Shown in pieces: positions 23,135 through 57,519 of a DNA stretch of 57,998 bases. A program made the translations under genes and the position numbers. A model generated the notes under the pieces. It ran no database searches and had not been told where the DNA came from. It saw only the letters and a list, made by a program, of their open reading frames with translations. Source of the DNA: Actinomycetota bacterium (GTDB lineage Bacteria > Actinomycetota > Actinomycetes > Actinomycetales > Microbacteriaceae); contig JARXAN010000035.1 in the NCBI GenBank assembly GCA_029865895.1, positions 1-57,998 of the forward strand, in the 5' to 3' direction. Positions within the stretch are counted from its first letter, which is position 1. Every line of letters begins with the position of its first letter.

Positions 23135-23948
23135 TTGCTGCCTTTCGTTCCAGGTGGGTTACATCGTTTACCTCTGGGCCCAAAAAGCGTTTGGCCAGGC
23201 TCTCGAATTCTTTGGCGTCGCCAGTTGCGTAGAACTTGTAGCTGGGCTTGGCTGCGCTGGAGGCAAGCATGTCGTGCTCAGTTAGCACTCTAAAGACATC
23301 CTTTGCGGTTTCATCCGCGGACGAAACTAGGTTTACGTTGTCACCCATCACATAGGAAATAGCTGCATTCAAGAGTGGATAGTGGGTGCATCCCAAAACC
23401 AAGGTGTCAACATGGGCGCTCTTGATCGGAGCCAGGTACTCCTCGGCGGCCTTTAGAAGTTCTGGTCCCGAGGTCACACCACGCTCGACGAAATCAACAA
23501 ACGATGGGCAGGCGGCGGCAGTTATTTCAAAGTCAACCGCTGCGGCAAAGGCATCTTCATAGGCCTTGGAGTTAATGGTTGCGCTGGTTCCAATGACTCC
23601 GACTTTGCGACTTCTGGAGGTTCCAACTGCCTTACGCACCGCGGGCTGGATAACCTCAACCACCGGAACTCCCAGTCCCTCGGTGTAGCGCTCACGGGCA
23701 TCCCGAAGTACTGCGGCAGAGGCAGAGTTGCAGGCAATAACCAACAGCTTTACCCCGGATGCCACAAGTTCGTCCATTACCTCAAGGGCAAGACGGCGAA
23801 CCTCTGAGATGGGTTTAGGTCCGTATGGGGAGTTGAGGGTGTCACCCACATAATGAATGGATTCGTTGGGGAGCTGGTCGATGATTGCTCGAGCCACTGT
23901 CAAGCCACCGACGCCTGAGTCGAATACGCCAATTGGTCTGGAATCCAC
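23127..23948 (-). CDS. murI: Glutamate racemase
   Basis: [38 protein letters not shown]. Confidence 0.96.
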
Positions 23949-23954
23949 TCGCTA

Positions 23955-23960
23955 AGTCTA
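23955..23960 (-). promoter_or_regulatory. -10 TAGACT, 6 nt before the murI GTG (leaderless candidate)
   Basis: TAnnnT at the spacing expected for a start at +1. Confidence 0.5.
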
Positions 23961-23976
23961 AAGCGGATTGGGTAGG

Positions 23977-23982
23977 TAGGCT
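23977..23982 (+). promoter_or_regulatory. -10 TAGGCT, 6 nt before the pncB GTG (leaderless candidate)
   Basis: TAGGCTTAAGGC-GTG; no ribosome-binding site seen. Confidence 0.5.
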
Positions 23983-23988
23983 TAAGGC

Positions 23989-25263
23989 GTGTCTACCGCA
24001 TTGAATACCGATCGCTACGAGCTGACCATGCTCCAGGCTGCCTTGCGCTCTGGCAAGGCAAATCGGCAGTGTGTGTTTGAGGTCTTCACTCGTCAGCTTC
24101 CAGCCGGAAGACGCTATGGCGTTGTGGCCGGCACCGGCAGGGTGCTTGAGGCCATCCGAGACTTTAGGTTCGACGAGAAAGAGCTGTCCTATTTGGCGGC
24201 GAACTCAGTAGTGGATGAAAAGACGCTGTCTTGGCTTGCCGATTACAAGTTCCAGGGCAACGTCTCTGGTTATCGCGAAGGTGAGCTTTACTTCGGCCAC
24301 TCCCCTGTTCTCACCGTTGAGGGCAGCTTTGCCGAGGCAGTGATCCTGGAAACGGTAATCCTCTCGATTTTGAATTATGACTCTGCGGTTGCAGCGGCAG
24401 CAGCTCGCATGAAGTCGGTGGCTGGCAGCCGCAGACTTATTGAGATGGGCTCGCGCCGAGCCCACGAGTCAGCTGCTGTCTCCGCGGCCCGCGCCGCATA
24501 CATTGCCGGCTTTGATGCCACCAGCAACCTTGCCGCTGGAGACCAATACGGCATTGATACCGCCGGGACCAGCGCTCACGCCTTCACCCTGCTGCACGAC
24601 AGCGAGGAGCAGGCGTTTCAAGCGCAGCTTGACTCAATGGGCAACGAAACCACCCTGCTGGTTGACACCTATGACGTAAAGAATGCGGTCGAAACCGCGG
24701 TGCGGCTGACCGGCGGAAAGATTCGTGCCGTGAGACTCGATTCGGGAGACCTAGCCACCTCTGCGGTTGAGGTGCGAAAGCAACTCGATGACCTTGGCGC
24801 CAAGCAAACCAAAATCACAGTCACCAGCGACCTAGACGAGTACACCATCGCAGCGCTGGCGATTGCACCGATTGACAGCTACGGAGTTGGCACCAGCCTG
24901 GTCACCGGTTCCGGTTTCCCAACCGCAGGCTTTGTATACAAGCTGGTTGCTCACAGCGACAACGGTGACTGGGTGGATGTTGCAAAGACCTCGAAGCTCA
25001 AGACCAATCGGGGCGGCAGAAAGTTTGCTAGCCGTGTGCTGGAATCTGGCACCGCTAAAAGTGAGCTGGTATCTTCGCATCTCCAAGGCGGGCGGGCACT
25101 TCAGGTTTCCATGATCGTAAATGGGCAAATAGCGACCGAGTATCTGGGCGTCCAAGGCGTAGAAAAAGCTCGCGAACACCACAAACTTGCAATTTCCGAG
25201 TTACCGACCGGTGCACTGAGGCTCTCGAGGGGAGAGCCGGCTATCCCAGTCGAATTTATTTAG
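23989..25263 (+). CDS. pncB: Nicotinate phosphoribosyltransferase
   Basis: LNTDRYELTMLQAALRSG; IRAVRLDSGDLA; VTSDLDEYTI. Confidence 0.95.
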   Translation: MSTALNTDRYELTMLQAALRSGKANRQCVFEVFTRQLPAGRRYGVVAGTGRVLEAIRDFRFDEKELSYLAANSVVDEKTLSWLADYKFQGNVSGYREGELYFGHSPVLTVEGSFAEAVILETVILSILNYDSAVAAAAARMKSVAGSRRLIEMGSRRAHESAAVSAARAAYIAGFDATSNLAAGDQYGIDTAGTSAHAFTLLHDSEEQAFQAQLDSMGNETTLLVDTYDVKNAVETAVRLTGGKIRAVRLDSGDLATSAVEVRKQLDDLGAKQTKITVTSDLDEYTIAALAIAPIDSYGVGTSLVTGSGFPTAGFVYKLVAHSDNGDWVDVAKTSKLKTNRGGRKFASRVLESGTAKSELVSSHLQGGRALQVSMIVNGQIATEYLGVQGVEKAREHHKLAISELPTGALRLSRGEPAIPVEFI

Positions 25264-54008: not shown

Positions 54009-55079
54009 TTAGTTTGCGCTGAGCCAGCGGCGCAACCCAGCCTCGCAGTCAAAAAGGTGACCTACTGGAACGTTTTCATTGTCAGCATGTGCCAGTGACG
54101 GGTCACCCGGTCCATAGTTCACCGCAGGAATCCCCAGCGAGCTAAAGCGTGCAACGTCAGTCCAGCCATACTTGGGCTTTACCTCTGAACCAAGCGATGC
54201 CATAAATGCCTGCGCCTGCGGGGTGTTCAGGCCGGGCCTCGCACCAACCGCCAGGTCGGTGACCCGAACCTCGTAGCCTGCGAAGAACTCGCGAAGCATC
54301 GCTTCGGCTTCCTCTCCGGTGCGCGAAGGAGCAAATCGGTAGTTCACGGTCAAAGTTGCCTGATCTGGAATGACATTGGCTGCGATGCCGGCACTTGCCA
54401 AGACGGCATTGAGGCTCTCGCGATAATCCAAGCCATCCACGTTAACGGTCTCCGGCTGATAGCTGGCTAGTTTTTCAAGCGAGGGAGCAAGCTTGTGAAT
54501 GGCGTTCTCGCCCATCCATGGGCGAGCTGAATGTGCCTTTACGCCACTTGCTGAAACCTCAACTCGAATAGTGCCATTGCAGCCACCCTCGATCAGGGCG
54601 CTGGTTGGCTCACACAGCACCGCGAAATCTCCCTGAATCAACTCTGGGCGATTGCGAACTAGTCGGCCAAGACCGTTTAGGTCGCTGGCTACCTCTTCGT
54701 TGTCGTAGAAGACCCAGGTGATGTCGACGTTCGGGTGCACCAGCTCAACGGCCAACTTGAGCATCACTGCGACGCCGGCCTTCATGTCTACCGTTCCGCG
54801 ACCAACAATTACCTGCTCGCGCTCGAAGTGATGCAGCTGGGTTGGAAGGTTGTTGGCAATTGGAACGGTGTCGATGTGACCCGCGATGACAACTCTGGAA
54901 CCAAGGCCCAAATTGGTGCTGGCAACCACCGCGTTACCGTCCCTGACGACGCTCAGGTGCTTGCTCTGGCTCAGTAGCTTCTCAACCTCATCAGCGAGCG
55001 CCGCCTCATTGCCAGAGACGGATTCGATGTCGCAAATAGCCATGGTTAGCTCAACCAGGTTGGAGGTATCAAGTGCCAT
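54009..55079 (-). CDS. dapE: Succinyl-diaminopimelate desuccinylase
   Basis: M20: [54 protein letters not shown]. Confidence 0.95.
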
Positions 55080-55086
55080 GGCAAAA

Positions 55087-55092
55087 AGGCTA
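55087..55092 (-). promoter_or_regulatory. -10 TAGCCT, 7 nt before ATG of dapE
   Basis: TAGCCT-TTTTGCC-ATG on the minus strand. Confidence 0.55.
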
Positions 55093-55096
55093 CCTG

Positions 55097-55102
55097 TATT
55101 CT
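55097..55102 (+). promoter_or_regulatory. -10 TATTCT, 7 nt before ATG of dapD
   Basis: TATTCT-GGTGAGG-ATG. Confidence 0.45.
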
Positions 55103-55109
55103 GGTGAGG

Positions 55110-56060
55110 ATGAGTGAGACATACCTAACAGATAAGGCCTGGGGCCACGGTCTAGCCACGATTTCGCACGATGGCACCGTTTTGGATGCCTGGTTCCCAG
55201 AACCTGCGGTTGGCGAAGCACCAAAATCGGATCTGCAGTGGTTTTCCCCCAGGGAACTCGACGAACTGGTTGGCGTTGATGAACTGCGTAATGTCAGAAC
55301 CGAAGTCATTCGAGTTGAGATTGAGCTTTCAAACCCGGTCACCTCAACCCAGGATGCCTACCTGAGGCTTCAGCTGCTCTCTCATCTACTGGTGCAGCCA
55401 AACAGCATCAACCTCGAAGGTCTAATCCCAAATCTTCCGATCGTGGCATTCACCAATCGTGGAGTCATGGCCCTGGATGACTATGAGGCTAAGACCATAA
55501 CCCTTCGCAATCACGGTGTCGTTGCCCACTCGATCGATAAGTTTCCACGTCTTGTCGACTACGTAGTTCCTAAGAAGGTTCGCATCGCAGATGCCAACCG
55601 AGTCCGTCTCGGAGCTCACCTGGCACCTGGCACCACAGTCATGCACGAGGGTTTTGTGAACTTCAACGCTGGAACCTTGGGCACATCCATGGTCGAGGGT
55701 CGAATCTCACAGGGTGTTGTGGTTGGCGATGGTTCCGACATCGGTGGTGGCGCATCAATCATGGGCACGCTCTCCGGTGGAGGCAAGCACAAGGTTTCGA
55801 TTGGCAAGAACGCACTACTTGGAGCTAACTCAGGAGTCGGCATCTCAATCGGCGACAACTCGGTGGTCGAGGCAGGTCTTTACATCACCGCAGGCACCAA
55901 GCTCACCTTGATTGTTGATGGCAGAACTCAAATTGTGAAGGCTGCAGAACTTAGCGGTCTACCTGGCATGCTCTTTAGACGCAACTCACAAACGGGAGCG
56001 GTGGAAGCTATTGCCCGTGAGGGCTTGGGTGTCTCGCTAAACAGCGAACTACACGCCTAG
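55110..56060 (+). CDS. dapD: 2,3,4,5-tetrahydropyridine-2,6-dicarboxylate N-succinyltransferase
   Basis: Left-handed beta-helix repeats: [55 protein letters not shown]. Confidence 0.95.
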
Positions 56061-57052
56061 GAACTAACCGAATCCCAGCCCCTAGGTTCCAGCACGCTTC
56101 CGCCTAGCGAAACTGGCACTGCACCGCGCTTCACCACGCTGCCAATCACCTTGAAGCCTCTAGGAATCTCACTCCCCTGCGGGAAAGTGGCCAACAGCGA
56201 GTGGTCCTCTCCCCCGTAAAGCACCCAATCCATTGGGTCGCGAGCGAGATCATCCCGCGCGCTCAAAGACTGGGCAGCAAGTTCGAGCACTGCGGCGTAG
56301 CCCTCTAGCTTGCTGCGGTCGAGCTCTATCGAGACGTCTGAGGCATTTGCCAAGCGGTTGCAGTCCAACGCGAGTGAATCAGAGACATCCAGCATCGAGT
56401 TGGCATGACCTGCCGCCTGAATGCCCAGCTGAATCGGCGGGGTTGGTCGCAATTGCACCGCAACCCACTCGTCATAGGCCTTGGCAAGTGACTTATCTTG
56501 GTGCAGCAACAGATCCAAACCACATGCAGCACGCCCCAGAGTGCCCGCTAAGGCAACGTTGTCCCCAACCTGAGCCCCAGAGCGAAGCACCGGATTGGCA
56601 CCCGCGAGGTGACCGTGTGCGGATACCGCAATCACAATCTGCTCACCTGCGGCTAGGTCTCCCCCGACAATCTCACACTCTGGTGCAAGTTCATCGCAGC
56701 CGGCCTGCAGGCCCCGAGCAAAATCTTCCAACCACATCTGGGTCGTGTTCTTTGGGATAACCATTGCAACCACCAGAGCAATTGGCTTAGCCCCCATCGC
56801 TGCGACGTCCGCAACATTGCTGGCGACAGCCTTGAAGCCAAGGTCATACCCGGTTGAGAATTCAGTCCTGAAATCGTGAGATTCCACCATGGTGTCGGTG
56901 GTGACTACAAAGCGTCCGTCTGTTACTGCAACTACCGCAGCATCATCGCCCGACCCAACCAGAGTGGTCTCCACCTTGCGAAAGTTCTTCACGGCTAGCT
57001 TGAGGGCAGCTATTTCACCAAGTTCAAAGACGGTCGGGCCTGAATAATTCAC
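56057..57052 (-). CDS. thiL: Thiamine-monophosphate kinase
   Basis: [53 protein letters not shown]-like DVSDSLALD. Confidence 0.95.
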
Positions 57053-57058
57053 AAACCA

Positions 57059-57064
57059 ACGCTA
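57059..57064 (-). promoter_or_regulatory. -10 TAGCGT, 6 nt before GTG of thiL
   Basis: TAGCGT-TGGTTT-GTG on the minus strand. Confidence 0.55.
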
Positions 57065-57068
57065 GCCT
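57063..57068 (+). promoter_or_regulatory. -10 TAGCCT, 7 nt before ATG of the DUF3515 gene
   Basis: TAGCCT-GTATTTG-ATG; overlaps the thiL -10 at CTAG. Confidence 0.55.
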
Positions 57069-57075
57069 GTATTTG

Positions 57076-57519
57076 ATGCGAAAACTTCTTCTTCTGTTGC
57101 TAATTCCGCTGCTGACGGGCTGTGCTGCAACCGTAAATCTCGAGGCAGCGCCATTGGCCAATGATCCGGCCTGCGCTGAGGTCTCGGTTCGCTATCCATC
57201 CGGCATCGGAGATTTGGCCCAGCGCTATACCAACGCCCAGGCCACCTCGGCCTGGGGAGAGCCGGCGGCAATTATTGCTCGGTGCGGCCTAGAGCCTGTC
57301 GAAGTTTCTGAATTGAGTTGCGTGACTGCCGGCGGGGTGGACTGGCTGGTGGATGACTCGCAAGCACCTAGCTATCGCTTTATTAGCTTTGCTAGAAATC
57401 CCGCAGTTGAGGTGATCGTGGATTCCGAAATGGCAAGTGGAGTTGGTGCGCTAGAAGCGCTTGCGGGAGCAGTTTCAAAGATTCCGGCTAGCAAGGTCTG
57501 CACCGAAGTTACAAATTAG
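57076..57519 (+). CDS. DUF3515 lipoprotein
   Basis: Lipobox LLTGC; AEVSVRYPSGIGDLAQRYTNAQATSAWGEPAAIIARCGL. Confidence 0.9.
   Translation: MRKLLLLLLIPLLTGCAATVNLEAAPLANDPACAEVSVRYPSGIGDLAQRYTNAQATSAWGEPAAIIARCGLEPVEVSELSCVTAGGVDWLVDDSQAPSYRFISFARNPAVEVIVDSEMASGVGALEALAGAVSKIPASKVCTEVTN

Follow-up and report, generated by a model that had tools for sequence, protein, structure and literature searches.

A putative minimal bidirectional promoter with interleaved -10 elements between thiL and a DUF3515 gene in Microbacteriaceae

We found that the 23-bp gap between thiL and a divergently oriented DUF3515 gene is very likely to be a minimal bidirectional promoter for sigma-A, the housekeeping sigma factor, serving two mRNAs that are both predicted to be leaderless. 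The gap lies near one end of a 57,998-nucleotide stretch of DNA from a member of the Microbacteriaceae (contig JARXAN010000035.1), here called the window. The original prediction, made from the letters of this stretch, had proposed that the -10 boxes of the two genes overlap at a single CTAG and that both transcripts start at the start codon. Its coordinates, letters, hexamers and shared TA were all correct when read directly against the sequence. The proposed reading, in which overlapping -10 boxes form a minimal bidirectional promoter with predicted leaderless starts, also held up at the level of sequence comparison: the shared TA and both TANNNT hexamers are conserved family-wide at the same gene pair.

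The two genes are readily recognized. thiL, encoding thiamine-monophosphate kinase, is an open reading frame at 56057..57052 on the minus strand, and the DUF3515 gene is an open reading frame at 57076..57519 on the plus strand that encodes a protein with a lipobox-like N-terminus (LLTGC). Pfam matches to AIRS (ThiL-type; E=2e-25) and DUF3515 (E=4e-16) confirmed both gene names. The GTG start codon of thiL (57050-57052, minus strand; cac on the plus strand) and the ATG start codon of DUF3515 (57076-57078, plus strand) are separated by positions 57053-57075, with the sequence AAACCAACGCTAGCCTGTATTTG. The in-frame codons 5' of the thiL GTG are TTT, TGG and CGT, followed by a TAG stop inside the -10 box. 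Thus, an earlier start for thiL is impossible. For DUF3515, the only alternative upstream start is an in-frame TTG at 57073. By reading, there is no Shine-Dalgarno sequence in the gap. Nothing around the locus matched a known RNA family, so nothing points to a riboswitch or leader RNA. The literature that we searched contained nothing on DUF3515 and nothing on start-site mapping in Microbacteriaceae.

The -10 hexamer of thiL is TAGCGT (57064-57059, minus strand; N6 from GTG) and that of DUF3515 is TAGCCT (57063-57068, plus strand; N7 from ATG). T57063 and A57064, in the middle of the CTAG at 57062-57065, belong to both hexamers on opposite strands. Two observations count against reading this as a shared promoter: the hexamers match TATAAT at just three of six positions each, and a -35 element is absent. 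A scan for sigma-70 consensus promoters (a TTGACA-like -35 and a TATAAT-like -10 separated by 16-18 bp) returned nothing, and there were no conserved -35 columns in either direction in the aligned family loci, neighboring coding regions included. The earlier suggestion that the -35 region of each gene lies within the other gene is therefore right by position only, as a conserved -35 is visible in neither direction.

Both hexamers are placed as expected for leaderless genes. In Actinobacteria, leaderless promoters are described, in the relevant passages of several reports, as having TANNNT 6-7 nt before ATG or GTG, no conserved -35, and often [G/C][A/G]N in front of the hexamer (PMC3160421, PMC3898074, PMC3890552). 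We looked for this arrangement with gene starts from a simple codon-based gene caller, in the window and in 20-kb samples of two genomes of the same genus (adding up to about 400 kb and 380 kb). In the window, 10 of 52 callable genes had TANNNT at N6 or N7 5' of the start, compared to 0-1 at other offsets, and nine of these 10 leaderless-like genes had no Shine-Dalgarno-like sequence. In the congeners, 37/368 and 43/350 sampled genes had TANNNT at N6/N7, and other offsets averaged about 1%. Most genes with this arrangement have no Shine-Dalgarno-like sequence. Judged from sequence, this sharp peak is the actinobacterial leaderless-gene signature. thiL (N6) and DUF3515 (N7) both fall within it, and therefore each half of the element is, by position, an ordinary leaderless promoter. 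From the peak we predict that transcription of DUF3515 begins at, or at most 1-2 nt from, the A of its ATG (57076, plus strand) and that of thiL at, or at most 1-2 nt from, the G of its GTG (57052, minus strand).

The shared geometry is conserved across the family. We collected thiL loci by a protein search of the Microbacteriaceae, including Aquiluna and Rhodoluna, and added 60 further genomes by coordinates, mostly one per genus. A locus passed if it had in-frame starts on both sides and both TANNNT hexamers sharing one TA. This was so at 74 of the 96 thiL loci, in about 50 genera (counted from genus labels); these loci are related by descent and so are not independent events. Identity of ThiL among the passing loci drops to roughly 43-46%, the spacers on both sides of the core have diverged, and flanks and spacers carry little information. 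The spacings most often found (thiL side/DUF3515 side) were N6/N7 (32 loci), N7/N7 (25) and N7/N8 (7). The core was ACGGTAGCCT at 37 loci, ACGCTAGCCT (the core of the window) at 16 and AAGGTAGCCT at seven, with variants at the rest. Among the 22 loci that failed, three (L010, L025 and L032) have the same core but are truncated or differ slightly in spacing, several have apparently lost the neighbor, and about a dozen have both genes but separate boxes. All combinations of the four anchor letters were also scored against these in-frame start pairs. The best was ATAT, with 74 loci, and the runner-up, CAGG, scored 50, apparently from the same alignments shifted by one base. Within the genus of the window, a pattern search found the thiL element in 17 of 19 genomes; completeness is 55% and 76% for the remaining two. 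Besides the thiL locus, the full pattern has at most one other match per genome in the genus. One part of the original prediction, conservation of the CTAG core in relatives, was borne out for the shared TA and the two hexamers but not for CTAG itself. GTAG is more frequent across the family loci and stands in its place in most genera, which rules out CTAG as the conserved unit.

The conserved unit is instead a 10-bp palindromic pattern, A-N-G-N-TA-N-C-N-T (ANGNTANCNT), at 57059..57068 in the window. Two positions outside those used for selection are also fixed: in the loci aligned on the TA, the G two bases 5' of the T is present in 74/74, as is its mirror-image C. Ordinary leaderless boxes of the genus have C as the fourth hexamer base in 17% and G(-14) in 41% of cases, so an overlap of two plain TANNNT hexamers would not fix this G and C. 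A need in each promoter for the G of an extended -10 would account for their fixation, since the C at position 4 of one hexamer pairs with the G(-14) of the opposite promoter. We therefore read the fused element as a pair of interleaved extended -10 elements. In the window, the predicted extended -10 of DUF3515 is CGC-TAGCCT (57060..57068, plus strand; N7 before ATG), in the SRN/CGN-TANNNT form found in Mycobacterium tuberculosis, and that of thiL is GGC-TAGCGT (57059..57067, minus strand; N6 before GTG). In M. tuberculosis, according to the part of PMC3898074 that deals with these promoters, [G/C][A/G]N stands in front of 49% of TANNNT boxes, with CGN frequent, and no -35 consensus was seen.

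Relatives in which the two promoters are separate have the same components. The thiL and DUF3515 genes usually remain divergent neighbors in the order's other families. Wherever both boxes are visible there, the gap is longer and each start is served by a separate GNTANNNT at N6/7. Split pairs are found in other Micrococcales and in some genera of the Microbacteriaceae (for example, at L110, L125, L184 and L201), and at most starts of the longer-gap relatives the GNTANNNT at N6/7 stands apart from the box of the partner. The split promoters are like the fused locus in gene pair, in N6/7 distances and in their GNTANNNT boxes, and differ from it in having separate -10 boxes and a longer intergenic region. 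By count, 16 of 18 thiL and 17 of 19 putative DUF3515 split promoters elsewhere in the order carry G(-14). At one split locus (L206) the ACGGTA motif occurs twice 5' of thiL (TCCACGGTATC and TCCACGGTAACCT), as if a fused element had doubled and each gene had kept one copy.

A short Lrp/AsnC-like gene, recognized from its translated start only, adjoins thiL on that side at many loci in the wider class. The simplest history would be that this gene was lost, that two leaderless promoters next stood back to back, and that these then fused on one TA in the Microbacteriaceae. About a dozen genera of the family would have kept their boxes apart or separated them again. Because these genera keep the pair with separate boxes, fusion is not required. 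At four loci of one other family of the class (L250, L251, L252 and L262), thiL and an Lrp-like gene flank AGGGTACGGT, in which one TA is common to two TANNNT hexamers. These loci hint that fusion arose more than once, with a different neighbor.

We propose that the interleaved extended -10 elements, one GNTANNNT per strand, would allow RNA polymerase to bind the shared TA in either orientation. The region of this TA would be melted by a single sigma-A holoenzyme at any one time, and transcription would begin at or beside the respective start codon, giving a leaderless mRNA of either thiL or DUF3515. We infer each part of this scheme, that is, transcription in both directions, the exact starts, leaderless translation and occupancy by a single polymerase. 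Exclusive occupancy of the shared TA is likely on steric grounds. The idea that the two genes exclude each other at each firing event follows from the same steric argument, but it need not have a regulatory effect: in Escherichia coli, the five bidirectional promoters tested fire too weakly for competition to make a difference unless one direction is activated (PMC12825309).

Our results suggest that the thiL/DUF3515 element is a very compact and deeply conserved example of a kind of promoter known from other bacteria. In the 23-bp class of bidirectional promoters, as presented in the relevant parts of the report by Warman, Grainger and colleagues (NAR 2026, PMC12825309), the divergent starts are separated by about 23 bp and flank a stretch common to both -10 hexamers, one polymerase acts at a time, and small deviations from the 23-bp separation are expected. 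The predicted separation at thiL/DUF3515 is 24 bp, if both transcripts start at their start codons, and this agrees with the 23-bp class. Unlike the members described there, the two transcripts are predicted to be leaderless, a -35 is not visible, and the starts are predicted. In addition, both -10s belong to the extended GN type and interleave, and the element is conserved across a family. The element also differs from known actinobacterial leaderless promoters in that its two promoters share a TA rather than standing alone. Divergent promoters often lie close together in M. tuberculosis, and the passages of PMC3898074 that concern them do not describe a shared box.

It is possible that only one of the two promoters is real, most likely the DUF3515 TAGCCT, with thiL expressed from elsewhere and its hexamer a by-product of symmetry. 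The DUF3515 box is nearer to the genus consensus TAGNCT than is the thiL box (TASCGT), and -10 elements are inherently semi-symmetric, as noted in the relevant part of PMC12825309. However, in most loci the A and G positions on the thiL side hold their place at N6/7 from the start of thiL, thiL at split loci retains its own GNTANNNT without a partner box, and the in-frame stop within the -10 box forces thiL to start at its GTG in the window. We consider a single promoter unlikely. Chance overlap of two weak TANNNT matches in a short gap would account for hexamers that each agree with TATAAT at only half of their positions, TANNNT being a weak motif. In contrast, the arrangement is kept in most family loci and in nearly all genomes of the genus, and we consider chance excluded for practical purposes because the shared TA and both boxes were kept across the family while the spacers diverged.

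The palindrome could also be the operator of a dimeric regulator acting on both genes rather than a pair of overlapping -10 boxes, and the near-palindromic core is indeed more conserved than plain TANNNT boxes demand. This extra conservation is explained by the G(-14) of each extended -10. Several other observations argue against an operator. The distance from the core to both starts is the genome-wide leaderless -10 distance. The two halves come apart at split loci, and each remains at N6/7 from its gene. An operator would not behave in this way. Full-pattern matches in the genus are confined to thiL and at most one other site per genome. We regard an operator as quite improbable, and a bidirectional promoter made of two interleaved extended -10 elements best fits these results.

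A further notion is that interleaving was itself selected, with exclusive engagement coupling or balancing expression of thiL, for a cofactor kinase, and of the DUF3515 gene, for a cell-envelope lipoprotein, beyond any benefit of genome compaction, and that this keeps the fusion in most genera. We consider this doubtful.

Most work on bidirectional promoters has relied on start sites mapped in one species. The thiL/DUF3515 locus provides a natural series of fused and separate -10 elements, with split cases within the family too, and these natural variants allow the cost and benefit of promoter sharing to be compared. The pattern ANGNTANCNT is a suggested sequence rule for extended -10 bidirectional promoters and can be searched for elsewhere. 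What our analysis adds to the original prediction is the interleaved extended -10 pattern, the series of split and fused loci, and the correction regarding CTAG.

Other compact divergent pairs were seen in the window and in a congener (G095); the gene names that follow come from sequence only. In the window, dapE-like (minus strand) and dapD-like (plus strand) genes at 55077-55112 have starts separated by 30 bp. Their boxes, TAGCCT (minus strand, 55092-55087) and TATTCT (plus strand, 55097-55102), are back to back without overlap, each N7 from ATG, and the arrangement recurs in G095 (L158:7255-7285). A third divergent pair in the window (23946-23991), 40 bp apart, has predicted leaderless boxes TAGACT (minus strand) and TAGGCT (plus strand), each N6 from GTG. 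One match to the full pattern, of the G435 type, has no left-hand open reading frame. In G095, the shared-TA pattern lies between a protein mannosyltransferase-like (pmt) gene and an rsmI-like gene (L282:1501-1529; frames of 481 and 271 aa), plausibly a second use of the full element. Also in G095, the start codons of a menB-like/menC-like divergent pair (L140:14882-14904) are 17 bp apart around TAGACTA. Both sides are N6, and the predicted starts are 18 bp apart, the separation of the commonest class of bidirectional promoters.
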